Assembly (NCBI GenBank): GCA_024636505.1
Contig: JAGXGY010000037.1
Span: forward strand, 1-64,000
Direction of reading: 5' to 3'
Origin: Methylobacter sp.
GTDB lineage: Bacteria > Pseudomonadota > Gammaproteobacteria > Methylococcales > Methylomonadaceae
Length of the DNA: 64,000 bases
The notes under the pieces: model-generated
Told to the model about the DNA's origin: nothing
Seen by the model: the letters and a program-made list of their open reading frames with translations, nothing else
Database searches by the model: none
Translations under genes and position numbers: made by a program
In this document: in pieces, positions 4,846-63,721 of the stretch
Position numbering within the stretch: position 1 is the stretch's first letter
How the letters are laid out: every line of letters begins with the position of its first letter

Positions 4846-5168
4846 TAAAACGGCAGTTGAAATCCGGGAGGTAAGGGTATTCCTGCGGTAACGTCTGTCA
4901 TTTTTTCCTTTTTCATTTTTGCGACTTTATTGACTGCGTCGTTGATGGCGGACGCAATCAGGTCTTCCAGCATGTCCTTGTCATCGCCGAGCAGGGACGG
5001 ATCGATGGTCACCTTTCTGGCTTCGCGTTTGCCGGTCATTAGTATGGTTACCAGGCCGCCGCCGGATTCGCCCATGACCTGCATCGCGCTAAGCTCTTCC
5101 TGCGCTTTTTTTAAGTCTTCCTGCATTTTTTGGGCTTGCTGCATGATGTTGCCGAGTGCATTTTTCAT
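4845..5168 (-). CDS. ybaB: YbaB/EbfC family nucleoid-associated protein
   Basis: A 107-residue YbaB/EbfC protein with the family N-terminus [22 protein letters not shown], the central [28 protein letters not shown], and the C-terminal [16 protein letters not shown]. These small dimers bind DNA and help organise the nucleoid. It lies between dnaX (31 bases upstream) and recR (overlapping stop/start), the conserved gammaproteobacterial order. Confidence 0.96.
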
Positions 5169-5199
5169 GTGTTTTTCTCTTGTCGTTATAGGGGGCTGA

Positions 5200-6795
5200 T
5201 TAGATTGGCTCTATGGTGCCGGGCATGACTCTGGCGCCTAGGTGTTCTTTTAAGGTTTGAACATTTTCGTCGGAATTAATCGCGTCAACCGCCGCCTGTT
5301 GCCGGTCTTCGCGGGCTTTGGTCAGTTGCACCGCAGGTGTGGCCAGCGTGGTTTTTTCGGTGGTAATCACCAGTTTCAAGGGTGTTTTGCGATAATCCTG
5401 TAATGCCTTTTGCAGGTTTTCTTCCCGGCGTTTAATGCGTAAGTGACTGGGATCTAAAATTAACGTACATACATTGTCATCTATATTTTCCAGTACGCAG
5501 TTATTGGCTAATTCCCGGGTTGCCGGGGCAAGATTCATCGCAACAACCATTTCCGCCCAATTGACATTGTCGCTTTGCGCAACGGTTTCCGGGGCGCTTT
5601 TTTCGATGATAATGTCAGGTTGTTGCATTGCTGTCGGTTTATACGCGGGTTGAGCCTGCGGTTTGTTAATGACCGGATGAGTCTGTGCCGGTTTAACCGC
5701 TACCGATGTTATGCCGACCGGCCTGAAGGTCAGCATCCGCAACATGACCATTTCAAAGCCGCTGCGCGGGTCGGGGGCTAAATCCAGATCCCGTTGTCCT
5801 ACCAGACCTATCTGATAATAAAGCTGTACATCTTCCGGGGTTAGTTTGACCGCCAAGGCCGCAATCATCTCCACGTCAAAATCGTGATCTATAGCGTCTG
5901 GTATTTGTTGTAGCAAGGCGATGCGATGCAGGACTTGCAAGATTTGTTGCAGCACATCGCTAAAGTCCGGCGTCAAGTTGGCTATCTCGTTTATTTTATC
6001 GAGTATCGCGGCCGCATCGCCTTCTGCAAGAGCTGTCAATATATCGTCAACCGGCTGCTGGGCTACTGTGCCCAGCATCGCGCTGACCTCGTCGGTGCCG
6101 ACTTTGCCGTTGCCGTAAACAATGGCCTGATCCAGCAAGCTTAAGGCGTCGCGCATACTGCCGTCGGCGGCGCGGGATATGAATTTTAAGGCTCCCGATT
6201 CGGCTTCGATATGTTCCTGCTGGAGGATGAATTCCATCTGGGTAAAAATCTGGCTGGGCAGCAGGCGTTTGAGATTAAACTGCAAACAGCGTGACAAGAC
6301 GGTGACCGGGATTTTATGGGGATCGGTGGTAGCGAGCAGGAATTTGACGTGCGGCGGCGGTTCTTCCAGCGTTTTCAACAAGGCGTTGAAACTGTGCCCG
6401 GACAGCATGTGGACTTCATCGATCAGGTAAACTTTGTAGCGGCCCTGGTTGGGCGCGTATTGGGCGTTATCCAGTAAATCGCGGGTATCTTCAACCTTGG
6501 TGCGCGATGCTGCGTCGACCTCGATTAAATCCAGAAAACGGCCTTCATCCAGATCGCGGCACACGCTGCATTCGCCGCAGGGGTTGAAATCCTGGAGATT
6601 TTCGCAATTAATGGCTTTGGCTAAAATTCGAGCGATAGTGGTTTTGCCTACGCCGCGCGTTCCGGTAAATAAATAGGCGTGATGAAGCCGATCATGTTGT
6701 AAAGCGTTCATTAACGATTTGACGACATGCTCTTGTCCGACAACTTCGGTGAAATTATGGGGACGCCATTTTCTGGCGAGAACCTGATAATTCAT
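5200..6795 (-). CDS. dnaX: DNA polymerase III subunits gamma/tau
   Basis: A 531-residue clamp-loader ATPase. The start is set at MNYQVLARKWRPHNF (6795), the family N-terminus; a longer frame from 6846 would run into the SRP RNA gene. Seen in order: Walker A GTRGVGKTT, zinc-binding CGECSVC region, Walker B LIDEVHM, sensor 1 region LLATTDP, then domain III and a C-terminal part that is more variable. Tau binds DnaE and DnaB and holds the replisome together. The protein is shorter than E. coli tau (643 residues), mostly in the linker and domain IV. It begins 27 bases after ffs and heads the dnaX-ybaB-recR unit. Confidence 0.95.
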   Translation of the reverse strand: MNYQVLARKWRPHNFTEVVGQEHVVKSLMNALQHDRLHHAYLFTGTRGVGKTTIARILAKAINCENLQDFNPCGECSVCRDLDEGRFLDLIEVDAASRTKVEDTRDLLDNAQYAPNQGRYKVYLIDEVHMLSGHSFNALLKTLEEPPPHVKFLLATTDPHKIPVTVLSRCLQFNLKRLLPSQIFTQMEFILQQEHIEAESGALKFISRAADGSMRDALSLLDQAIVYGNGKVGTDEVSAMLGTVAQQPVDDILTALAEGDAAAILDKINEIANLTPDFSDVLQQILQVLHRIALLQQIPDAIDHDFDVEMIAALAVKLTPEDVQLYYQIGLVGQRDLDLAPDPRSGFEMVMLRMLTFRPVGITSVAVKPAQTHPVINKPQAQPAYKPTAMQQPDIIIEKSAPETVAQSDNVNWAEMVVAMNLAPATRELANNCVLENIDDNVCTLILDPSHLRIKRREENLQKALQDYRKTPLKLVITTEKTTLATPAVQLTKAREDRQQAAVDAINSDENVQTLKEHLGARVMPGTIEPI

Positions 6796-48379: not shown

Positions 48380-49228
48380 ATGCGTACTTATATAGAAGCC
48401 TTGCGGCACAGCTTGTATCAAGTTATTTATCAGTCCCATACGCCGGCGGGAAAAGGCTTCGATATTGCGCTGATGATTTTAATTCTGAGCAGTGTCTTAA
48501 CCATTACCTTGGACAGTGTCGCCGACATTAGTCGGCAGTATGGGGAGCAACTGGCTACCGCAGAATGGCTATTCACGACTTTATTCACTGTCGAGTATAT
48601 TCTTCGTATTTTTTGCATACACAGGCCAATCAAATACATCATCAGTTTCTACGGCCTCATCGATTTATTGGCTATTGTTCCTTCCTATCTGGGTATTTTT
48701 ATATCCGATTCGCATTACCTCCAAGTCATCCGCATCCTCAGAATTTTACGGATATTTCGGGTGTTGAAACTGGTCCGTTTTATCAATCAGTCCAATCTGC
48801 TGATCAACGCTTTAATGGCCAGTCGGCTCAAAATCACTATATTTATACTCACTATTTCCACGCTGTTGGTGATTTTCGGGTCGGCCATGTATTTGATCGA
48901 AGGTCCGGAACATGGCTTTGCCAACATACCGGTAAGCATTTACTGGGCGGTGGTGACCTTGACCACGGTGGGTTTTGGCGACATCACTCCCCAAACCGAT
49001 CTGGGGCGTGCCATCTCCGCAGTGGTTATGATCAGCGGTTACGCGATCATCGCAGTACCCACCGGTATATTCACGGCGGAATTATCCCAGGAAATGAAGC
49101 GGCAGAATGCTGGTGTTGACGAAAGGGTTTGTTCGAAGTGCCGAAAAACCGGGCATGAAACCGAAGCAAACTATTGTCGTATTTGTGGCACGGATCTGGC
49201 TCAGTCGGTCGGCGAGAAGTCAGGCTAA
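48380..49228 (+). CDS. voltage-gated potassium channel with C-terminal zinc ribbon
   Basis: A 282-residue six-helix Kv-type channel. S4 carries the Arg ladder (VIRILRILRIFRVLKLVRF), the pore helix and filter are SIYWAVVTLTTVGFGDITP (filter TVGFGD at about 197-202), and S6 follows (SAVVMISGYAIIAVPTGIFTAEL). The C-terminus carries a zinc ribbon, CSKC...YCRICG. It conducts K+ across the inner membrane in response to voltage. A SLATT-domain gene follows 136 bases downstream on the same strand. Confidence 0.92.
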   Translation: MRTYIEALRHSLYQVIYQSHTPAGKGFDIALMILILSSVLTITLDSVADISRQYGEQLATAEWLFTTLFTVEYILRIFCIHRPIKYIISFYGLIDLLAIVPSYLGIFISDSHYLQVIRILRILRIFRVLKLVRFINQSNLLINALMASRLKITIFILTISTLLVIFGSAMYLIEGPEHGFANIPVSIYWAVVTLTTVGFGDITPQTDLGRAISAVVMISGYAIIAVPTGIFTAELSQEMKRQNAGVDERVCSKCRKTGHETEANYCRICGTDLAQSVGEKSG

Positions 49229-49364
49229 TCTAGGTGTTTTCTGCAATTGTGCGGTGTCTATGCGTTGTGTATGATTTATTGGTCTTCACATTTTTTGTTT
49301 TGCCTTTTAACAAATTTTTTAGCTCGTTATCAGGTTTTCGTAATTGTCACAAGAGGATGTACTT

Positions 49365-49874
49365 ATGAGAATAGAACAGAAACAGCTGTTGAAATCCTGG
49401 CGGGATGAGCTGGGAGTAACAATGCATACGCATTATGTGCTATCCACCAAGATTCGCTTATTGAATTACATCCTGGGCATTCCGTGCATCATTATTGCTA
49501 TGTTGGTCGCTACCTATATCTTTTTCACCATCAATCAGAATGTTGTTCTCTGGGTGAAGATGCTGTTCGGCTTGCTTAGTTTGTTGCTGGCGATATTGGC
49601 TTCGCTGCAAACCTTTCTTAAGTATTCGGAGCAGGCGGAAAATCATCGTAATGCCAGTGCTCGCTATCAGGCTCTGTTCAACGGGATAGATCAATTGCTT
49701 GTCATCCCGCCCAAGGATGAGGCGGCTTTAGGCGTGTGGTGTGATAAGTTTCGTGAACGCTGGGATGAGTTGAATCTTGAAGCGCCCAACATAGCGAACA
49801 AGTTTAAACTGGAATCAGGAGCAGAAACGGTATCGACAACCCCGGAAGATAGTTATCAGACGTCAGTTGAATAA
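49365..49874 (+). CDS. SLATT-domain two-TM protein (DUF4231-like)
   Basis: A 169-residue protein; the ATG at 49365 follows AAGAGGA and is preferred over a TTG at 49344. An N-terminal helix (LLKSWRDELGVTMHTHYVLSTKIRLLNY) is followed by two membrane helices (ILGIPCIIIAMLVATYIFF and VLWVKMLFGLLSLLLAILASL) and the SLATT motif YSEQAENHRNASARYQALFNGID. SLATT proteins are predicted pore-forming effectors in nucleotide-signalled conflict systems, usually next to a SMODS or SLOG gene. None is present here. The neighbour is a potassium channel. Confidence 0.78.
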   Translation: MRIEQKQLLKSWRDELGVTMHTHYVLSTKIRLLNYILGIPCIIIAMLVATYIFFTINQNVVLWVKMLFGLLSLLLAILASLQTFLKYSEQAENHRNASARYQALFNGIDQLLVIPPKDEAALGVWCDKFRERWDELNLEAPNIANKFKLESGAETVSTTPEDSYQTSVE

Positions 49875-50335: not shown

Positions 50336-50950
50336 ATGATGTTTTTGCACGCAGAGCACAACTCCAAAATGAATCTTTCGGCAAAAGACATGTTTGAAAT
50401 TAGTCAGGAACTCAGTCGCTGTTTTACGCCATGCTTTTCAAGTCCGGTGCCGGAGCTTGATGAAGAAATCCGGCTTTCTCCCAAGGAATTATTGGATATT
50501 GGCGAAGAAATCAGTCGGGATTTTACACCGATACCGTTCAGTAGCACGCCTGAATTAGTGCTTTTGCCGGTCGATCCCGGACACCTTTATGCGTATTGGA
50601 ATGTTGGGCAAGGTCACGACCTTTCTACAGCCGATAATCACCCGCTTACCCTGCGAATTTATGCGCAATCCGGCGAAGAAGAGACGGTTGCCGAGACAGT
50701 ATCATGGTTTGACGTCGCCATTAATAACCCGATAACGGCACAACAGGTGTCCTTATCCCGTCCTGTTGATGAAACCGCCTATTCAGCAGCCATCGGCAAA
50801 TGTGATGCAGATGATGGTTTTATCGCTATTGCCTGTTCAAACATTATTCATGTACCGCTTGGACGGGCGGCCTGCTATCAGGATCGTCAAGACTCCAGCT
50901 ATTGCCAGGGAAAAAATGCCTCAGGCCTGGGAATCAACAAACCAGCGTGA
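50336..50950 (+). CDS. DUF4912 protein with duplicated N-terminal motif
   Basis: A 204-residue protein. The DUF4912 domain spans about 75-180 (PELVLLPVDPGHLYAYWNVG ... DGFIAIACSNIIHVP). Two copies of one motif precede it: LSAKDMFEISQELSRCFTPC and LSPKELLDIGEEISRDFTPI, each followed by FSS-PEL, so the N-terminus arose by tandem duplication. DUF4912 domains are often next to or fused with GH57 glucan-branching enzymes; here its stop overlaps the GH57 start (TGATG). Presumably a glucan-binding or regulatory partner. The 25 residues after NIIHVP look atypical, so a small frameshift near 50865 is possible. Confidence 0.75.
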   Translation: MMFLHAEHNSKMNLSAKDMFEISQELSRCFTPCFSSPVPELDEEIRLSPKELLDIGEEISRDFTPIPFSSTPELVLLPVDPGHLYAYWNVGQGHDLSTADNHPLTLRIYAQSGEEETVAETVSWFDVAINNPITAQQVSLSRPVDETAYSAAIGKCDADDGFIAIACSNIIHVPLGRAACYQDRQDSSYCQGKNASGLGINKPA

Positions 50951-52593
50951 TGACAACAAGCCTACCGTGTTCCGGGCAAGGATTCCTGAGTATTGTTCTG
51001 CACGCACATCTTCCCTATGTGCGCCACCCTGAACATGACAGTTTTTTTGAGGAAAACTGGCTGTTCGAAGCCATAAGCGAATGCTATCTGCCGCTAATCG
51101 GCGTACTCGACCGTTTACACGCAGATAAGGTCGATTACCGGCTGACGCTGTCGTTGTCGCCGACGCTGATATCTATGTTGCGCGACGACTTGTTGCAAAC
51201 ACGCTATCTGAGCTATTTGCACAGTCGGCTGGAATTGGCTGAAAAGGAAATTATCCGAACCCGCAAGCAGCCGGAGTATCAAAAATTAGCGCGACTCTAT
51301 CGGCGCTTTTATCTAAACGCGTTAAACACTTATCAAGATCGCTATCAGGGCGATTTATTGGCGGCTTTTAAAAAACACCAAAGCACCGGTAAGCTTGAGC
51401 TGATCACGACAGCGGCGACTCACGGTTTCTTGCCGCTGTTGAATGTCAGCGAAACCGCAGTCCGCAACCAGGTCAATACCGGTATCGGAATGTTTAAAGC
51501 AGCAACGGGCAGTGCTCCAAGCGGTTTTTGGCTGCCTGAATGCGGCTATTATCCGGGCCTTGAAGCGATTCTGGCCGATGCGGGTATCGCCTATTTTTTT
51601 GTCGATAGCCACGGTATTATGGATGCCCGTTCGCCACCTCGGCATGGCGTTTACGCGCCGATAGCTTGCGGCAATGGCGTGGCGGCATTTGCACGCGATC
51701 CTGAATCATCGCAGCAAGTCTGGAGTTCTAAAGAAGGCTATCCGGGGGATTTCGACTACCGTGAATACTATAGCGATATTGGTTTTGAGCTGGAGTTGGA
51801 TTATATTGCGCCTTTTATTCTCGACGGGAAAACCCGTATCAACACCGGCATTAAATACCATCGGGTGACCGGCGAAAACCGGCCTAAGGAAATTTACAAT
51901 CCGAGGCAGGCATTAGCCAAAGCGCGCGAACATGCCCGGGATTTTGTCGATAAGCGTCAGCGGCAGATCGATCGGCTTGGCGCTACGATGGACGACAGTC
52001 GGCAACCCATTATAGTTGCGCCTTACGATGCGGAACTGTTTGGTCATTGGTGGTTCGAAGGGACGCATTGGCTGGAATGGGTGCTGAGGTTGGCAAGCGA
52101 CAGCAGCGGTGTTCGATTGATCAGTTGCGGGGATTATTTAAAGCAGCAGCCGTCACCGCAGGTAGCGACACCCGCCGCATCAACTTGGGGCGATCAAGGC
52201 TATTCCAGTTATTGGATCAATGAAACCAATGCCTGGATTTATCCCTTGCTGCACAAGGCCGAATTAGAGATGGAAAAACTGGCGCGCGATGTTCAGGGAT
52301 TAGCACTGACGCCGATACAGACGCGGGCCTTGAATCAGGCCGCCAGATCGATTTTGCTGGCGCAAGCTTCCGATTGGCCGTTTATCATGAAGTCGGGGAC
52401 CACCATCGACTATGCGAATAAACGCGTTACCGATTATCTGGCCAGATTTAACTATTTACATGACTGTTTTCGCAAGAATAGGCTCAATGAGCGTTATTTA
52501 ACAGCGCTGGAGATCATGGACAATCTTTTTCCGGATATTGATTTTCGGGATTACAATCCCTCAAGGGTGTGTTTTAAACCCGCCCGGTCTTAA
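50950..52593 (+). CDS. GH57 1,4-alpha-glucan branching enzyme
   Basis: A 547-residue GH57 protein. Start ATG 50950 overlaps the upstream stop; N-terminal motif FLSIVLHAHLPYVRHPEHD is GH57 motif 1. The catalytic Glu is in GFWLPECGYYPGLE (about residue 197) and the Asp in VAPYDAELFGHWWFEGTHWLEW (about 360). A C-terminal helical domain (DUF1957-like) contains ETNAWIYPLLHKAELEMEKL and LLLAQASDWPFIMKSGT-type segments typical of branching enzymes of this class. It introduces alpha-1,6 branches into glycogen. A GH13 branching enzyme (glgB) is also present at 60075-62348, so the window encodes two branching enzymes. Confidence 0.9.
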   Translation: MTTSLPCSGQGFLSIVLHAHLPYVRHPEHDSFFEENWLFEAISECYLPLIGVLDRLHADKVDYRLTLSLSPTLISMLRDDLLQTRYLSYLHSRLELAEKEIIRTRKQPEYQKLARLYRRFYLNALNTYQDRYQGDLLAAFKKHQSTGKLELITTAATHGFLPLLNVSETAVRNQVNTGIGMFKAATGSAPSGFWLPECGYYPGLEAILADAGIAYFFVDSHGIMDARSPPRHGVYAPIACGNGVAAFARDPESSQQVWSSKEGYPGDFDYREYYSDIGFELELDYIAPFILDGKTRINTGIKYHRVTGENRPKEIYNPRQALAKAREHARDFVDKRQRQIDRLGATMDDSRQPIIVAPYDAELFGHWWFEGTHWLEWVLRLASDSSGVRLISCGDYLKQQPSPQVATPAASTWGDQGYSSYWINETNAWIYPLLHKAELEMEKLARDVQGLALTPIQTRALNQAARSILLAQASDWPFIMKSGTTIDYANKRVTDYLARFNYLHDCFRKNRLNERYLTALEIMDNLFPDIDFRDYNPSRVCFKPARS

Positions 52594-52726: not shown

Positions 52727-54235
52727 TTGGCCAAAATCCAACTGCTGTATGTTGAAAATGTGATTACCCGTAAAAAAACCAACGTTCAACAGACGCTGGA
52801 TTTTTTTATGCGGGTGGAAAACGTCAGTTACGATAAACGGATCGATGTACTCTGGTCGGGTGAAGATGGCATATGGCAAACGCTGCCTGCAAGCTTCCAC
52901 AGCAAGCTGGAACATGATCAGGAATGCTGGCGGGCTCAAATCCATTTCCAGCTCAGTCCGGCTCATTCGCTACCCGGCAATATCCGGTTCGGATTGCGCT
53001 ATCAGAGTGCGGCGGGCGAGTATTGGGATAACCGGCAGGGCGCAAATTATTCCAGTCAGGCTGATTCAGGTATCAGGGTCGCGTGTGCCGCGCCGGTTTT
53101 AAATATCGGCTTTACGACCCAGCTGGAGGGCGAACAAAAAAACCTTCCGATCACGGTGGCGGTGGATATGTTCAACGATGCCGACAAGGTAACCGTACAC
53201 TGGACGACCGATAATTGGCGGCATAGCCATAAAACCGCCTGCCATTTTAAAAGAAACTACTGGGACAAAGAGGCGCTCAGTAATGCCAGAAATCCCAATC
53301 AGTACGGTGTTGCAATTTGGAAAGGCTGGCTTAGGATCGGTCAGGCTTTTCGCGTGCAATACAGTATTTCCGTTGAACGCAACGGCCAGATTTTTTGGGA
53401 TAACAATCACGGCAAAAACTACTCGCTTAGCCATGAGCCGCTGAAAGTATTGATTCTTAATCTGCATTGTTATCAGGAAGATAATCAGGATGATAAGTTT
53501 TCCCAAATAGCCAAGGCGATTAACGAATTGAATGTTGACGTGGTCTGTCTACAGGAAGTGGCTGAACTTTGGAATGACGGGGCAGGGGACTGGGAGTCCA
53601 ATTCCGCCAAAATAATCAATGATCGCTTGGCTACGCCTTATCATATCTACACCGACTGGGCGCATCTGGGCTTTGACAAGTACCGCGAAGGCGTTGCCAT
53701 TTTAAGCAAATACCCGCTGCTTAAACACGATGCCAAGTATGTGTCCGATAGCGATGACGTTTACAGTATTCATTCCCGAAAAGTGGTCATGGCACAAATC
53801 AAGGTGCCTTATATCGGGCGGCTTAATGTTTTTTCTGCGCATTTAAGCTGGTGGGAAGACGGATTTGCCGGGCAGTTTAATCGACTGTGCGAGTGGGCCA
53901 AGGCTAAACAGACGGCGCAAGTTTGCGCCACGTTGTTGTGCGGCGATTTTAATATTACTGCCGGATCAAAAGGCTATCATCTGGTGGTCGATGCTCATCA
54001 ATATGACGACCAGTATTTGGCCGCTAATTCGCAGGGCGTGTTTGAAAAAATCTTCAGAGTTAACGATCCCTACTGGCAAGATTATCCCAGCGACGATTAT
54101 CGTATCGATTATGTTTTTTTGAATAAAACCAGTGAGCTGACTGTCACCTCAGCGACGATTCTGTTTACCGAGCGGGATTATGGCAGGGTTTCCGATCATT
54201 GCGGTTATTTGATGACCTTTGAACCTAAGATTTAA
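52727..54235 (+). CDS. tandem CBM21-like starch-binding domains fused to an EEP-fold phosphodiesterase
   Basis: A 502-residue protein starting at TTG 52727 after GGAGACAAAA. Residues about 5-115 and 125-235 are two related beta domains, each ending in the CBM21-type signature: EYWDNRQGANY and IFWDNNHGKNY. From about 240 a DNase I/endonuclease-exonuclease-phosphatase fold follows: LILNLHCYQ, VVCLQEVAE (metal Glu, about 276), LLCGDFNITAG, YRIDYVF and VSDHCGYLM (catalytic His). No signal peptide, so cytoplasmic. The combination implies a phosphodiesterase or phosphatase tethered to glycogen. The true substrate is unknown. A phospholipase D-fold gene follows 172 bases later. Confidence 0.85.
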   Translation: MAKIQLLYVENVITRKKTNVQQTLDFFMRVENVSYDKRIDVLWSGEDGIWQTLPASFHSKLEHDQECWRAQIHFQLSPAHSLPGNIRFGLRYQSAAGEYWDNRQGANYSSQADSGIRVACAAPVLNIGFTTQLEGEQKNLPITVAVDMFNDADKVTVHWTTDNWRHSHKTACHFKRNYWDKEALSNARNPNQYGVAIWKGWLRIGQAFRVQYSISVERNGQIFWDNNHGKNYSLSHEPLKVLILNLHCYQEDNQDDKFSQIAKAINELNVDVVCLQEVAELWNDGAGDWESNSAKIINDRLATPYHIYTDWAHLGFDKYREGVAILSKYPLLKHDAKYVSDSDDVYSIHSRKVVMAQIKVPYIGRLNVFSAHLSWWEDGFAGQFNRLCEWAKAKQTAQVCATLLCGDFNITAGSKGYHLVVDAHQYDDQYLAANSQGVFEKIFRVNDPYWQDYPSDDYRIDYVFLNKTSELTVTSATILFTERDYGRVSDHCGYLMTFEPKI

Positions 54236-54260
54236 GGTGAAAGATTCAGGGCGAGAGGCA

Positions 54261-54303
54261 GGAGTGCAAGCTTCGCTTGCTCAGCAGGCGAAGCCTGCAC
54301 TCC
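54261..54303. repeat. REP-like palindrome between EEP and PLD genes
   Basis: GGAGTGCAAGCTTCGCTTGC and GCAGGCGAAGCCTGCACTCC are inverse complements except for two mismatched positions, around a TCA loop. No T-tract follows on the plus strand. A dispersed repeat is more likely than a terminator, though it could attenuate transcription into the PLD gene. Confidence 0.65.
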
Positions 54304-54407
54304 AGCTGCACCTTCACGTTTTATAGATGTAAACGTTACCGACGGCGCTGCAAACCCCGTCCGGCATGAGGTAGATAATAATACCTTGACCATGGAGATA
54401 AAAAAAT

Positions 54408-56000
54408 ATGCAGATAGCAGAACATTACGCCGCACCCACTCATGGAAATTTGGGAGGCTCTTTTCAAAGAGTTAACGACTTCAACGACAAATTCTATGTC
54501 CGCTGGGGAAAAATAGATTTCGATGTGTTTTATGGCGTTCAGGCCAATGTCAAAGTTATCCTAAAAGTCTATCGCGATACGATCTGCGAAACCTATATCG
54601 TCGATACCGACGCCTATGATATTCACTGGGATAGGCACAAACGCTGTACCCGGGATTTTTATATCCATCCGTTTTCCAGTAATTTCGGCCAGATCAACTG
54701 CGTTAAGTTCGCCTTTATTGTGCATCTGGACGAGCATTCCATTGCCTCCCGGAACGAATATATCTTTATGGACTGGCACCAGCTTCAGTGCGACCATCCG
54801 CAGTACCGAAGAATTACCGGTGATTGGGCCACGACCAATAGTTATCGAAGTTATGAGCTGAATGCCGGTGAATTACAGTGTGATGCGGATTGGTATAACC
54901 ATCATTTTGACGCCTTGCAACTGGTGCCGAAATTCACTAAAGGACAGCAGCATCACCCTTATCATCCCAAACGTTATATTCACGACCTGATCGACAAGGT
55001 TATCCGCTGCAAGCACCAGAATCCTGAGCGCTTATGCACCATAAAAGTCAGCGTGGATTGCATCGACGACCACGATTTCACCACCCATTTGATAGCCGCC
55101 AGCGAGCAGGGGGTTTGGGTTCAGTGCATCGTGGATTGGCGAAAAATGACCCTGACCAACAGCCAAAATTATGCGCGCTTGAAGCGTTCCCGGATTGAAT
55201 TAATCGGCGTGTTTTGCAGCCCCAAACATCACTTGATCGAAGTGGAACCGGATATGCATACCAAATTCATTATTTTTAATGATGAGGACAGCATACTGGG
55301 CTCATTCAATATTACTTTCGATCGCTGGTGGGCCAATTGGGAGTCGGGGATGACCTTTCATTCCAAAGGTGTCTGTCGATTGCTGGACAATATTTTTCAA
55401 AGTCAGCGGGGTGGCGTCAATCAACAATACGGTATCGATCCGTTGAGTCATTTCAATCTGCTATATACCTTTGGCCGGCACGTGATGCTGAACGGCAAAC
55501 CCTATCTTCCGCATCATGCGATATTGGCCGAAATTAACCGTGCCAGATATTCGATTAAAGTGTCGTTATTTTTGATTGGCGATTTGTTGGGCGATCATCA
55601 CGATAGCGTGGTCAATGCACTGATTAATGCCAGAAATAGAGGCGTCCATGTGCATATTCTGCTTAACGGGCATTTGGCCAGACAAGGTCGTATCGGTGTG
55701 GAACGGCCGATGGGGGAAGAGCTGAGTCGCCCGTTGCTGCCGACGGTGGATCGATTAAAACATGCCGGTATTGCGGTAGGTCTGGTTTACGGGCAGGACG
55801 ACCATCCGGTGCCTTATTCCCCGATACATTCCAAGTATTGCATTATTGACGATTATATCGTTATAGAAGGCAGTTTCAACTGGTACAACACCTCGGTTTT
55901 TTCCCATGATTTATTGGTCGTAGCGGCCAATTACCATGTAGCGCAGCCTTATTTGTATGAGTTTGAACAAATACAGCGGTCGTTTAGGGTGTATTACTGA
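54408..56000 (+). CDS. phospholipase D-fold protein with two HKD motifs
   Basis: A 530-residue protein. Residues 1-170 are a beta-rich region (IDFDVFYGVQANVKVILKVYRD, YIHPFSSNFGQINCVKFAFIVHLDEH) that I cannot assign; its position suggests ligand binding. The PLD core has two HxKx4D-type motifs: MHTKFIIFNDEDSILGSFN (about 282) and IHSKYCIIDDYIVIEGSFN (about 473), both followed by the G(S/G)xN element. This is the two-site layout of a working phosphodiesterase or transphosphatidylase. No signal peptide or membrane helix is evident. It is the downstream neighbour of the starch-binding EEP protein. Confidence 0.85.
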   Translation: MQIAEHYAAPTHGNLGGSFQRVNDFNDKFYVRWGKIDFDVFYGVQANVKVILKVYRDTICETYIVDTDAYDIHWDRHKRCTRDFYIHPFSSNFGQINCVKFAFIVHLDEHSIASRNEYIFMDWHQLQCDHPQYRRITGDWATTNSYRSYELNAGELQCDADWYNHHFDALQLVPKFTKGQQHHPYHPKRYIHDLIDKVIRCKHQNPERLCTIKVSVDCIDDHDFTTHLIAASEQGVWVQCIVDWRKMTLTNSQNYARLKRSRIELIGVFCSPKHHLIEVEPDMHTKFIIFNDEDSILGSFNITFDRWWANWESGMTFHSKGVCRLLDNIFQSQRGGVNQQYGIDPLSHFNLLYTFGRHVMLNGKPYLPHHAILAEINRARYSIKVSLFLIGDLLGDHHDSVVNALINARNRGVHVHILLNGHLARQGRIGVERPMGEELSRPLLPTVDRLKHAGIAVGLVYGQDDHPVPYSPIHSKYCIIDDYIVIEGSFNWYNTSVFSHDLLVVAANYHVAQPYLYEFEQIQRSFRVYY

Positions 56001-58358: not shown

Positions 58359-59792
58359 TTATAAATGACTGTATAAGGTCATGTATTGTTTCGCGCTTTT
58401 TCTCCAAGAGTAGTCTTTTTGCATACCATTAAGTTGCAGTTTTTTCCAGGTTGCAGGATGTTGATATAAAATCAGCGCACGTTTAACGGCTTCCATTAAT
58501 ACCCAGGGATTGGCTTCATTGAAAACAAAACCTGTTGCGGTATTATTGCTCAAGGTGTCAGGAACGGTATCAATAACGGTATCAGCCAGTCCTCCGGTTT
58601 TTCTGACGATGGGCACTGTGCCATAACGTTGGCTGTAGATCTGGTTTAAACCGCAGGGTTCAAAACGTGAGGGCATCAGAAACATATCGGCTCCCGCTTC
58701 AATTTGATGAGCCATGGCTTCATCATAACCGATAGTAATCGACATTTTATCGGGGTGGCTATCGACAAAGTTATATAAATGCTGCTCAAAACCTTTGTCG
58801 CCGTTGCCGAGCAAGATAAATTGCAACGGGTGGCTTAGCATTTCGGGGAGACATTTCAGGATCAGATCGATGCCTTTTTGTTCTACTAAACGACTGATAA
58901 GTCCGATTACCGGAATGTTTTTGTCTACAGGCAGGGATAATCTTTCCTGTAGTGCCGTTTTATTGAGCAGTTTTTTGTTTAGCGTTGAGTGATTAAACGT
59001 TTGGGAGATGTTGATGTCGGTTTCGGGATTCCAGTAGTCGACATCTATGCCGTTGATAATGCCGCTTAGAAAATCTTTCCGGTGGCTTAACAGGCCTTCC
59101 AGTCCGTAGCCGAATTCGGCGGTTTGGATTTCCCGGGCGTATGTTGGGCTTACCGTGGTGATGCGATCCGCATAGACCAGTCCGCCTTTAATAAACGACA
59201 GCAGGTCGTGAAACTCTATACCGTAAGGATGCCAAAGTTGCCCCGGCAAATTTAAAGAAAGGTAAGTCGCTTTAGGAAATAATCCCTGATAAGCCATGTT
59301 ATGTATGGTGAAAATTGTCGCAGGTCGGCTGTATTCCAGCGATAACAGTGCAGGTACCAGTCCGCTTTGCCAGTCGTTACAGTGAACGATGTCGGGCTCC
59401 CAATCCAGATAGCTGCGGTTCATCGCAACTTCTACGGCGACGCGGCAAAACAGGGCAAAACGTTGGGCATTGTTCGCCCAGGGATTGCCGTATTGATCAA
59501 GATAGGGATTGCCGGGAAAATTGAAGTGTTCCGGGGAATCTACCAGCCATACGATGACATCGGTATCAGGAAGCCGGGTTTCCAGAATGTTCACCGCATA
59601 ATTATTCACATAGACGGTGCTGAGGTAACGAACTTCTTCGGTGGTTTTAATGGCCTGATAATTGGGTATGATAATGCGTACATCTTCACCCAATTCCACC
59701 AGCGCCTTCGGTAGACTGCCGGATACATCGGCTAGACCTCCGGTTTTAATCAGGGGGTGGGCTTCACTAGTGACAAAAAGTATTTTTTTCAT
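58359..59792 (-). CDS. glgA: glycogen synthase
   Basis: A 477-residue GT5 glycogen synthase. The ADP-glucose motif KTGGLADVSGSLPKAL is near the N-terminus, HNMAYQGLFPK follows, and the C-terminal catalytic block is PSRFEPCGLNQIYSQRYGTVPIVRKTGGLADTV. It adds glucose from ADP-glucose to glycogen. Length matches E. coli GlgA (477). It is on the same strand as glgB, 282 bases downstream, with a MITE-like element between them, so they could still form one unit. Confidence 0.96.
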   Translation of the reverse strand: MKKILFVTSEAHPLIKTGGLADVSGSLPKALVELGEDVRIIIPNYQAIKTTEEVRYLSTVYVNNYAVNILETRLPDTDVIVWLVDSPEHFNFPGNPYLDQYGNPWANNAQRFALFCRVAVEVAMNRSYLDWEPDIVHCNDWQSGLVPALLSLEYSRPATIFTIHNMAYQGLFPKATYLSLNLPGQLWHPYGIEFHDLLSFIKGGLVYADRITTVSPTYAREIQTAEFGYGLEGLLSHRKDFLSGIINGIDVDYWNPETDINISQTFNHSTLNKKLLNKTALQERLSLPVDKNIPVIGLISRLVEQKGIDLILKCLPEMLSHPLQFILLGNGDKGFEQHLYNFVDSHPDKMSITIGYDEAMAHQIEAGADMFLMPSRFEPCGLNQIYSQRYGTVPIVRKTGGLADTVIDTVPDTLSNNTATGFVFNEANPWVLMEAVKRALILYQHPATWKKLQLNGMQKDYSWRKSAKQYMTLYSHL

Positions 59793-60074: not shown

Positions 60075-62348
60075 CTATAGTTTCAAGATGACGGCCCCTA
60101 AAGGCGGCAAAGTCAGGCTGACGGAGTGGGGCAGATTCATCCACGCGGTAGGTTCCGATAAGGCTGAGCCGTTGCCGACATTACTGCCATTGTAGTAACT
60201 GGAGTCGGAATTAAATATCTCGGTATAAGCGCCCGCAGCAGGTACGCCGATACGGTATTGCTCACGGGTTACCGGGGTAAAGTTGAGTATGACAATCAAG
60301 TCTTCATGCTCAGTCTTGCGCCGGTAGCTAATGATGGATTGTTGCATATCATGGCAATCGATCCAGTCGAAACCCTGATGATCGAAATCATGCTGGTATA
60401 GGGCGGGGTGTTTTTTATAAAGATTATTCAGGTCTTTTACCAACGATTTCAAGCCCTGGTGATGGGGATACTCCAATACATACCAGTCCAATTCCTTGTT
60501 AAAATTCCATTCGGTGCCTTGGCCGAATTCACAGCCCATAAACAGCAGTTTTTTACCGGGATAGGTATACATGAAGGTGTACAGCAGTCGAAGATTGGCG
60601 AAGCGCTGCCACTCATCTCCCGGCATTTTGCTGAGCAGAGAGCCTTTGCCGTGTACCACTTCATCGTGGGAAAAAGGCAGGCAGAAGTTTTCGGTAAATG
60701 CATAGAGCATCCCGAAAGTCAGTTGGTCATGATGATATTTGCGGTGTATCGGCTCCTGACTCATATAAGCCAAAATATCATGCATCCAGCCCATATTCCA
60801 TTTCATCGAAAAACCTAAGCCGCCGGTCCAGGTCGGCCTTGTGACTTGCGGCCAGGATGTTGATTCTTCGGCCATCATCACTGTGCCGGGATGCAGGTCA
60901 TGGGTAACGGTGTTCAGGTCTTTTAGAAAATCTATTGCTTCCAGATTCTCGTTACCGCCGTATATATTGGGAATCCAGTCATTTGCCTCACGAGAATAAT
61001 CCAGGTAAAGCATCGAGGCCACTGCATCGACCCGAAGGCCGTCAAGATGAAACTCCTCCAGCCAGAAAATGGCGCTGGACAGTAAGAAGTTTTTAACCTC
61101 ACTGCGGCCGAAGTTATAAATCAAGGTGCCCCAGTCGCGATGCTCACCTTTACGCGGGTCTTCGTGTTCATACAGCGCGCTGCCGTCAAAACGAGCCAGT
61201 GCAAAGCTGTCTTTGGGGAAATGCGCCGGCACCCAGTCCAGAATCACACCGATACCGTTTTGATGGCAGGTGTCGATAAAATAGCGAAAATCGTCCGGTG
61301 TGCCGTGACGACTGGTTGGGGCAAAATAACCGGTGGTTTGATAACCCCAGGAGGCATCCAGCGGGTGTTCGGTGACCGGCAATAACTCAACATGAGTAAA
61401 GCCCATCTCTTTGACATAGTCGACCAGTTCTATTGCCAGTTCACGGTAATTGAGAAAATTACCCCGGTTATCGCGTCGCCAGGAGCCTAAGTGAGCTTCA
61501 TAGATCGACATAGGCTCATGCAGCCAATTGTGATGGGCACGATCATCCATCCATTGCCTATCCTGCCAAATGTAGCTGTTTTCAGGGATGACAATAGATG
61601 AGGTATTGGGGCGTAACTCAAATTGTTGTCCGTAGGGATCTGTTTTTAATAAGATCTCATGGGTATTGCGGTTTAATATCTCAAATTTATAGTAGCAACC
61701 GGCGTGCAAATCCGGCAGGAACAGCTCCCAAATGCCGCTGCCGCCTAGGCTGCGCATGGGATTGCAGCGGCCATCCCAGTGATTGAAATCTCCCACTACG
61801 CTGACGCGTCCGGCATTAGGTGCCCAGAGCGCAAACAAAACGCCGTCAAGACCGTCGGCTTTATGCAGATGTCCGCCGAGCTTTTGGTAAATATGCCAAT
61901 GCTTACCTTCGCCGAATAAATACTGATCAAATTCCGGCAATTGGCTGCCGAAATCATACGGGTCATAGTTCTCGTGACTGTAGCCGGATTTATCGATCCA
62001 GGACAGGCGATAATGTGCCGGCAATTGCTCGCCTTCTTTGGTGTTATATTCAAAAAAGTCGGTACCGGGTACCCGGTTTAAAGCTGCGGCGTTATGAGTA
62101 AAACAGACTGTTTCTGCGTAAGGCAGGTACAGTTTAACCTGAACGCAGTTGTCCTTGATGTGGCGGCCTAAAACTGAAAAAGGATCGTGATGCCGGGCTT
62201 CCGTGATTTTTATCATGTCAGCATCAAGTGAGCTGTTAGCTGGTGTTTGCACATTGCCGGGCAGTACTTCTGAAGAAAGGATCGCATCTGAGTCAAGTGC
62301 ACTGCCAGCTTGTTTTTGCACTGTGGCATTTTTAGATTGCTTTTTCAC
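60075..62348 (-). CDS. glgB: GH13 1,4-alpha-glucan branching enzyme
   Basis: A 757-residue GlgB. The start is placed at GTG 62348; a longer frame to 62453 would overlap the divergent glgC start. A non-conserved N-terminal extension holds a tandem repeat ([28 protein letters not shown]), then the family region [14 protein letters not shown]48 and the barrel: [18 protein letters not shown] (nucleophile, about 438), [13 protein letters not shown] (acid, about 488) and [14 protein letters not shown] (about 559). It forms alpha-1,6 branches. Divergent from glgC with about 90 bases between, so a shared control region is likely. Confidence 0.95.
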
Positions 62349-62440
62349 TATGAATAGCCTCGGAGTAGTGGAATAATGATTGTTGTCAATATTAACAAAC
62401 ACATCAAGAATTGTCAGTCTATTCCACATGGAGATGAAAA

Positions 62441-63721
62441 ATGTCAGCATCAAGTAATCAGAAACATGATCATAATATCAGTCATTTAACCCGTAATACT
62501 ATTGCCTTAATCCTGGCTGGCGGCCGCGGTTCACGGTTAATGAATATGACTGATTGGCGCGCCAAGCCGGCGGTGCCTTTTGGCGGTAAGTTCAGAATCA
62601 TCGATTTTCCATTATCGAATTGTATGAATTCCGGTATACGCAAGATAGGTATTTTGACTCAATACAAGGCGGATTCACTGATCAGGCATATTCAACAAGG
62701 CTGGGGGTTTTTACGCGGTGAATTCGGTGAATATGTCGACTTGATGCCTGCTCAACAGCGACACAGCGAAAATTCCTGGTATCAAGGAACCGCTGATGCT
62801 GTTTTCCAGAATATCGATATTCTGCGCAGTCGCCGTCCTGAACATATTTTGGTGCTGGCCGGCGATCATATTTATAAAATGGATTACGGCGCCATGCTTG
62901 CCGATCATGTTGAAAAAAATGCTGATTTGACAATAGGCTGTATCGAGGTTTCGTTGCAAGATGCAACGGCTTTTGGTGTCATGGATGTCGATGAGAATCG
63001 GCGGGTCAGGGCTTTTGTGGAAAAGCCGGCTAATCCGCCGCTGATGCCGGGTAGAACAGATACAGCGTTAGCGTCAATGGGCATTTATATTTTTAATGCC
63101 GATTTTTTGTTTGAACAATTACTGAAAGATGCCGACACCCTAGACTCGACTCGCGATTTTGGTAGAGATATTATTCCTGCCGTTATCGATAAATATTTAG
63201 CCAATGCCTATCCCTTTTTGGATTTGCAAAGCGGGGAGCAAAGTTATTGGCGCGATGTAGGCACTATTGATGCCTACTGGTCTGCCAATATGGAATTGAT
63301 TGGCGTAAAACCGGATTTGAATTTATACGATAAAACCTGGCCCATATGGACTTATCAGGCGCAAACGCCGCCGGCCAAATTTGTTTTTGATAGCGATAAA
63401 AGACGAGGACAGGCCGTGGACTCTATGGTTTCAGGAGGGTGTGTCATTTCCGGAGCAAAAGTCAGGCATTCGCTGTTATTTTCGGATGTTCGCGTCAACT
63501 CGTATACGACCTTGCAAGATACCATTGTTTTGCCTGAAGTTAATATCGGTCGCCATTGTCGTATTACTAAGGCGATTATAGAAAAAGGCTGTGAAATTCC
63601 GGAAGGCACTATTATCGGTGAGGATAAGGCGGACGATGAAAAAAGATTTCATGTGAGTCCCGGCGGAGTCGTTTTAGTTACCACCGATATGCTGGGGCAA
63701 AATAGACACTATGTTCGATAA
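62441..63721 (+). CDS. glgC: glucose-1-phosphate adenylyltransferase
   Basis: A 426-residue ADP-glucose pyrophosphorylase. Motifs: [62 protein letters not shown], and the C-terminal left-handed beta-helix ([30 protein letters not shown]). It makes ADP-glucose from glucose-1-phosphate and ATP, the committed step of glycogen synthesis, and is normally allosterically controlled. The GH57 gene that follows 55 bases later is probably in the same transcript. Confidence 0.96.

Follow-up and report, generated by a model that had tools for sequence, protein, structure and literature searches.

Tandem genes for a CBM21-anchored EEP protein and a PLD-fold protein in a Methylobacter glycogen locus: a candidate phosphodiesterase pair of the glycogen particle

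Why would a bacterial glycogen locus carry two genes for phosphodiesterase-type enzymes side by side? The question is raised by a stretch of 64,000 nucleotides from Methylobacter sp. (NCBI GenBank assembly GCA_024636505.1, contig JAGXGY010000037.1, positions 1 to 64,000 of the forward strand), hereafter called the window. In it, a gene for a protein with two CBM21 domains and an EEP (Exo_endo_phos) catalytic domain, the EEP-CBM21 protein, is followed by a gene for a PLD-fold protein, both downstream of a gene for a GH57 branching enzyme. The pair had been pointed out in an earlier model-made reading of the letters alone (the sequence-only reading). The domain make-up of the two proteins, their conserved catalytic and sugar-site residues, the coupling of the two genes and their glycogen context are observed. 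On this basis, it is tentatively proposed that the pair are two cytosolic phosphodiesterases of the glycogen particle which strip phosphoryl adducts for the branching and debranching enzymes, a laforin-like role played by unrelated folds.

In Pfam, the EEP-CBM21 protein matches CBM_21 in two stretches (E 3e-20, 73 bits against a gathering score of 28.9) and Exo_endo_phos above its curated cut-off (E 1.7e-18). With a profile of 28 sequences searched against the PDB sequences, the first CBM21 domain (profile positions 28–110) matches the CBM21 of R. oryzae glucoamylase (2djm, E 2.1e-6), the second (positions ~134–240) those of PPP1R3B (E 9.1e-7) and PPP1R3C (E 1.9e-6), and the EEP domain (positions 237–495) PDB entry 3teb (E 1.6e-31). 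Both beta domains thus match CBM21 sequences of solved structures. An AlphaFold2 model (mean pLDDT 76.8, pTM 0.74; weak at residues 174–193, 281–284 and 444–457) has two beta-rich domains (strands 4–118 and 124–235) and an EEP domain, in agreement with the sequence matches. The CBM21 assignment rests on sequence, because the list of similar folds barely covers the beta domains. For the EEP part, structure comparison gives 3teb (Z 24.9), 3g6s (Z 23.8), TDP2 (Z 23.3), 4c1r and neutral sphingomyelinase (Z 21.9) as close folds; of these, 4c1r is the mannosyl-6-phosphatase BT3783, a glycan phosphatase, with a VIA Z of 23.1 and a root-mean-square deviation (rmsd) of 3.0 over 229 residues.

Residue conservation was read from 53 sequences, among them that of the window; since L014 and L085 are the same contig, 52 of the sequences are distinct. 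The EEP catalytic residues N245, E277, H372, D407, N409, D490 and H491 are invariant (53/53), E277 being the metal Glu, and the GDFN (406–409) and SDH (489–491) motifs are present, with S489 likewise invariant (53/53). By its fold and by the set of catalytic residues (N, E, H, D, N, D and H), the protein belongs to the EEP superfamily, and the description given in the sequence-only reading, two CBM21-like domains joined to an EEP domain with metal Glu, GDFN and SDH, is borne out by Pfam, by the PDB profile matches and by the 53-sequence alignment. The protein is not an exonuclease III (xth; 23.9 bits against the NCBIfam cut-off of 99.05), and its Pfam matches up to E 1 include no dual-specificity phosphatase domain. 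A standalone EEP paralogue of ~280–310 residues, 36–39% identical to the EEP domain among the matches listed, occurs in many of the same genomes and was seen near base 5000–6000 of loci L120–L127. As a guide to the substrate this paralogue was set aside, as no shared neighbour was seen in eight of its neighbourhoods, compared by eye on predicted open reading frames (ORFs).

The sugar-binding sites of the CBM21 domains were mapped by profile alignment with PTG and, using its site numbering, with the R. oryzae domain. According to PMC9582199, site I of PTG consists of Arg187, Trp193, Tyr196, Cys235, Trp246, Asn248 and Asn253, and site II of Asn177, Phe180, Glu181, Lys182, Tyr203 and Asp214. The second domain, CBM21-2, retains counterparts of Trp193, Trp246, Asn248 and Asn253 (W164 and W224 in 53/53, N226 and N231 in 49/53) and has His in place of Arg187 in 47/53; the site II phenylalanine is not retained in this alignment. 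In CBM21-1, alignment with the R. oryzae domain assigns W50 (50/53), W100 (47/53) and N102 (50/53) to site I; the site II residues are N32 (40/53), Y35 (43/53) and K37 (53/53), and position 57 is F or Y in 50/53. Hence, CBM21-1 has largely both sites and CBM21-2 most of site I only. With these residues retained, glycogen binding by the EEP-CBM21 protein is likely.

In a sample of 201 genomes of the window's family, the PLD gene was found in 131 and the CBM21-EEP gene in 129. The latter count is 131 genomes less one with the standalone EEP only (G517) and one whose match range is not listed (G519); partial matches were counted nonetheless (G512, G500, G533, G543 and G501), and since EEP positions are those among the matches listed, very short EEP fragments might be missed. 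Both genes are present in 126 genomes and neither in 67, with EEP alone in 3 and PLD alone in 5 (phi 0.91). Among the 126, the genes stand in tandem with EEP first in 114 (median gap 58 bases, range 14–716), lie apart on one contig in 4 and on different contigs in 8, which makes the adjacency seen in the window the rule in this family. Of the two outcomes named in the sequence-only reading as refuting it, rare adjacency and beta domains unlike CBM21, neither was thus observed. Six of the eight single-gene genomes have the gene at a contig end. In the three genomes with EEP alone, 110–222 bases separate the gene from the contig end at which PLD would be expected (measured to contig base 1 in two of them). 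The lone PLD matches in G435, G490 and G559 are truncated and start 140, 57 and 0 bases, respectively, from the end at which EEP would be expected. For the remaining two, G519 and G524, the upstream sequence read (1.5 kb and 5.4 kb, respectively) has no EEP gene.

The 67 genomes with neither gene span 18 genera, 11 of which also include carriers of the pair. This scatter suggests repeated joint loss or gain of the pair, though some of the pair-less genomes are incomplete. On one chromosome contig each, the pair is split in three genomes of genus g282 (G461, G526 and G562; loci L112–L117). Both genes are retained there, the EEP gene staying beside GH57 and DUF4912 and the PLD gene lying elsewhere. 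The split-off PLD genes (L112, L114, L116 and L118) share nothing in the two flanking ORFs on each side, as judged by eye only. Gene order was taken from a simple longest-ORF caller, which lost both EEP and PLD in L095 and PLD in L015, L093 and L106.

How firmly is the pair tied to glycogen genes? GH57 was found in 127 of the 201 genomes: together with EEP in 116, without it in 11, while 13 have EEP only and 61 neither (phi 0.74). A GlgA relative occurs in 190 genomes, with a phi of 0.19 with EEP. The ion-channel gene of the window (48,380–49,228), used as a control, is present in 82/201 at E 1e-50, with phi values of 0.008 for EEP, 0.012 for PLD and 0.17 for GH57. The distance between EEP and GH57 is at most 2.5 kb in 66 of the 116 genomes. 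The other 50 have them further apart or on different contigs; among these, G411 and G493 are still under 4.4 kb and some may be split by assembly, and in G394, G395, G422, G521 and G566 the distance is 0.9–2.2 Mb on one contig. In view of these 50 genomes, the five with very long distances among them, linkage cannot by itself account for the match between EEP and GH57. At the level of single loci, 52 EEP loci (16 from a search for relatives, 36 hand-picked to spread over genera) were read for GH57, GlgA, GlgB, GlgC, GlgX and MalQ; one exemplar each served for GlgX, GlgC, MalQ and a second GH57 gene. In 39 of the 52 (38 of 51 without the duplicate), at least one of these genes is carried in the stretch read. 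The glycogen setting described in the sequence-only reading is supported.

The PLD-fold protein has two PLDc_2 stretches in Pfam (E 1.5e-32), above the PLDc_2 and PLDc cut-offs. In 51 sequences (50 distinct), H284, K286, N301 and E312 and, in the second repeat, H474, K476, D481 and N491 are invariant. The first HKD motif reads H284-x-K286-x4-N291, with Asn for the usual Asp in 51/51, and the second (H474, K476, D481) is canonical. Two HxK...GSxN repeats, the first with N for D, place the protein in the PLD superfamily. The two HKD motifs of the sequence-only reading therefore stand, with the nuance that the first is not a full HKD, and so does its account of an unassigned, beta-rich N-terminus. 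In this region (~1–150), no Pfam family reaches its cut-off (nearest Acb3, 12.7 against 27 bits), no PDB sequence matches up to E 10, and no match beyond this genome was found among 299 genomes of the phylum. A third CBM21 domain was considered for it and rejected, since hhalign gives a probability of at most 0.5% against either CBM21 domain, whereas the two find each other at 96.3%. The beta-rich character is taken from an AlphaFold2 model which is poor (pLDDT 49, pTM 0.36), and because of this the list of similar folds for the PLD-fold protein was not used. Polyphosphate kinase 1 (PPK1) comes first in that Foldseek list, at an rmsd of ~20, and was not counted as evidence. Weak, uniform matches to PP_kinase_C at residues 188–242 were seen in 15/15 members (best E 5e-7), the protein of the window scoring 24 bits against a Pfam cut-off of 25.8; most likely, they reflect the shared PLD fold. 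The NCBIfam models of polyphosphate kinase 1 give 12.6–14.7 bits against cut-offs of 465.85–935.

Neither protein has a strongly hydrophobic N-terminus: in 19-residue windows starting before residue 25, the best Kyte-Doolittle means are −0.02 for the EEP-CBM21 protein and −0.22 for the PLD-fold protein. This is in line with the lack of export signals stated in the sequence-only reading.

In the proposed mechanism, the tandem CBM21 domains would anchor the EEP enzyme on alpha-glucan, where its metal-dependent EEP domain would cut phosphate esters in or on the glycogen particle. The PLD-fold partner would work through a covalent phosphohistidine, as is usual for PLD enzymes, and might cut a second class of phosphodiester, or a diester whose breakdown the EEP domain would complete. 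As an outcome, glycogen or glycogen-bound partners would be freed of phosphoryl adducts which hinder the branching and debranching enzymes. Activity of both proteins, binding to glycogen, glycogen phosphate as the substrate (rather than a nucleotide or lipid) and joint action of the two proteins are inferred. To our knowledge, EEP and PLD folds are known nowhere as glycogen-phosphate editors. A narrower version is somewhat doubtful: the EEP and PLD enzymes would jointly act as an editing system which rids glycogen of mono- and diesters of phosphate to the benefit of the GH57 branching enzyme. If it were true, methanotroph glycogen would be phosphorylated. According to PMC13011383, glucan phosphate lowers the affinity of branching enzymes for starch amylopectin, a Deinococcus enzyme being among those tested. 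The same paper states that some glycogen makers, bacteria included, are without laforin, and treats as speculation whether their glycogen is phosphorylated. As a second clue, PMC10030640 describes opposite temperature responses of two branching-enzyme copies in Methylobacter tundripaludum SV96; the SV96 locus (L004) carries GH57 and GlgB, which may or may not be these two copies.

Several points weigh against the proposed removal of phosphoryl adducts. The Z values of the close EEP folds are nearly equal and such folds cut many things, so the fold cannot pick the substrate. Of the 190 GlgA-bearing genomes, 64 have no EEP gene, and EEP is therefore not needed for glycogen as such. GH57 occurs without either gene in 9 genomes, one or both genes occur without a GH57 match in 16, and in 13 of the 52 EEP loci, three from Accumulibacter's family among them, the stretch read is devoid of glycogen genes. 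Kinship among the genomes is not taken into account in the phi values, and incomplete draft assemblies may explain some of the absences. The PLD-fold protein is the more conserved partner (mean column identity 83% over 28 sequences, against 69% for the EEP-CBM21 protein in a like set) and has no detectable sugar-binding domain, and it may for these reasons have a job of its own. Finally, PMC13011383 itself allows that bacteria encounter little glucan phosphate, or perhaps none at all, and does not mention GH57.

Among the alternatives, the one that survives best is still doubtful: the pair would brake or tune glycogen synthesis by hydrolysing a small soluble compound at the particle surface, either a phosphodiester or a pyrophosphate, with ADP-glucose, nucleotides and cyclic dinucleotides as examples. 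Nucleotide cutters are on the EEP structure list (PDE12, Nocturnin, with NADPH in one entry, and CNOT6L), and some loci, near GH57, GlgA or GlgC, would suit control of ADP-glucose. However, the GlgA-bearing genomes without EEP count against this idea as well, EEP tracks GH57 rather than GlgA, and it is not obvious why two CBM21 domains and a further phosphodiesterase would be required for a substrate in solution.

An action on phospholipids that ties glycogen particles to membranes, on the model of E. coli YbhP (EEP) and ClsB (PLD), is improbable. It would account for the likeness of the EEP domain to YbhP (25% identity, E 7e-13), whose gene adjoins clsB, for the presence of neutral and B. cereus sphingomyelinases among the close EEP folds and for the fact that mitochondrial cardiolipin hydrolase heads the PDB sequences matched by the PLD profile (E 4.5e-5). 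Yet, the PLD-fold protein matches ClsB at E 0.02 only and scores 22.3 bits against the NCBIfam cut-off of 290 for cardiolipin synthase, no membrane segment is seen by hydropathy in either protein, and the YbhP match may be a matter of shared superfamily. Descent of the pair from YbhP-ClsB was likewise rejected, the EEP likeness being at superfamily level only and the ClsB likeness near noise.

Still less probable is a pair of nucleases stored on glycogen for defence or nucleic-acid repair, with a TDP2-like EEP and a TDP1- or NucT-like PLD enzyme. TDP2 is indeed among the closest EEP folds, and the PLD-fold protein matches DrmC (E 7e-10) and MkoC (E 2e-9) in PADLOC, as well as NucT models of NCBIfam (best E 1.7e-6), but in NCBIfam it reaches 38.6 bits against a cut-off of 133 for DISARM DrmC and 19–28 bits against 211–351 for the NucT models (28 against 351). 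Moreover, the EEP-CBM21 protein has no PADLOC or PHROG match, the two PHROG matches of the PLD-fold protein (E 6e-7) are of unknown function, and the single plasmid record that matched the latter did so over 28% of the protein. Presence in ~64% of the family genomes, near glycogen genes in most loci read, does not fit such a role either. Hardly credible is a mainly scaffolding EEP-CBM21 protein which, like PPP1R3, brings other proteins to glycogen: PPP1R3 domains are the best solved-structure matches of CBM21-2, but invariant EEP catalytic residues would be unexpected in a dead domain. Of the options offered by the sequence-only reading, we judge the removal of glycogen phosphate esters to be the best fit and a defence nuclease the poorest.

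The genes discussed here are collected in Table 1; the gene boundaries given earlier were right, and DUF4912 and the GH57 branching enzyme are both found by Pfam upstream of the pair, as claimed.

Table 1. Positions of the gene pair and of neighbouring glycogen-related genes in the window
Feature	Coordinates	Strand	Remarks
DUF4912 gene	50336..50950	+	Opens the four-gene run
GH57 branching enzyme gene	50950..52593	+	GH57 and BE_C domains (Pfam)
EEP-CBM21 gene	52727..54235	+	502 residues; CBM21 domains ~1–118 and ~124–237; EEP catalytic domain 239–500; TTG start
PLD-fold gene	54408..56000	+	530 residues; beta-rich N-terminus ~1–150; HKD domains HxKx4N, then HxKx4D
GlgA glycogen synthase gene	58359..59792	-	
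GlgB gene	60075..62453	-	

The four plus-strand genes follow one another in the order of the table, and are met by convergent minus-strand genes for an HDOD protein, a polysaccharide deacetylase, GlgA and GlgB. At window positions 50,948–50,952, TGATG combines the DUF4912 stop codon with the GH57 start, which is probably the ATG whose A is also the last base of that stop codon; this overlap suggests translational coupling of DUF4912 and GH57. The GH57 protein falls below both NCBIfam equivalog models (334 against 920 bits and 330 against 1000 bits). Among the loci of the EEP relatives, DUF4912 varies widely, with identities of 36–75%. The closest relative found for the EEP-CBM21 protein, from Candidatus Methylobacter titanis, is 95% identical and its gene starts with ATG in place of TTG. 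Just downstream of the ion-channel gene, a SLATT_4 domain protein is encoded at 49,344–49,874 (107.3 bits, cut-off 55); SLATT proteins are often tied to nucleotide-signal defence.

Outside the family, the PLD gene is rare. In a class sample, the PLD gene was found in 1 of 369 genomes, namely this one, as was its N-terminus in the phylum sample (1/299). The EEP gene occurs in 37 of 121 genomes of an order sample, every one in this family. In Accumulibacter's family, 3 of 150 genomes (L015, L099 and L106) carry the PLD gene at 77–78% identity with EEP directly upstream, and none of the glycogen genes sought was found in the stretch read; acquisition by horizontal transfer is possible there. Within the methanotroph family, the 126 genomes with the pair offer a direct genetic handle on whether bacterial glycogen carries phosphate. 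If the substrate differs, an as yet unstudied phosphodiesterase module would still be at hand, probably attached to a storage polymer.

Compared with known systems, the pair resembles laforin and the plant SEX4/LSF glucan phosphatases, in which a glucan-binding domain and a phosphoesterase also come together at a storage-glucan particle, the function of the pair being a proposed one. The catalytic part of laforin is a dual-specificity phosphatase. In contrast to laforin, which carries a CBM20 (PMC13011383), the EEP-CBM21 protein has two CBM21 domains and an EEP domain, is without a dual-specificity phosphatase in Pfam and has a PLD partner. As it has no laforin-type domain and its activity is only predicted, the pair is not classed as a glucan phosphatase. 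The PPP1R3 subunits (PTG, GL and GM) share CBM21 with WDNNxGxNY and are the best PDB matches of CBM21-2; however, they have no EEP domain and recruit PP1, and the phenylalanine in site II of PTG has no counterpart in CBM21-2 in the profile alignment. BT3783 (4c1r) shares the EEP fold, at 18% identity over the aligned part, and is named as removing a sugar phosphate, but its glycan and setting differ from those of the EEP-CBM21 protein. Among solved structures, the EEP domain is most closely related to the Leptotrichia buccalis EEP protein 3teb, a chain of 266 residues matched over the EEP part only, whose title gives no function. In E. coli, the EEP gene ybhP directly adjoins the PLD-fold gene clsB (L128, 2499–4498), as in the window; YbhP has 253 residues, with the alignment confined to the EEP part, and ClsB hardly matches the PLD-fold protein. 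With the PLD superfamily (NucT, PLD6/Zucchini, cardiolipin synthase, DrmC and PPK1), two HKD repeats with GSxN are held in common, while the PLD-fold protein differs in having its own N-terminus and N for D and in falling below all NCBIfam cut-offs listed. The sequence-only reading knew of no described system of this composition, and none was found in the open-access literature searched, which is without most subscription journals and without any bioRxiv preprints; the accessible part of a review of prokaryotic alpha-glucan enzymes (PMC11046441) contains no CBM21, no laforin and no word starting with 'nuclease'. Each fold is known; as far as this literature search reaches, the composition of CBM21-EEP with PLD is undescribed, and it is kin to the carbohydrate-anchored phosphoesterases.

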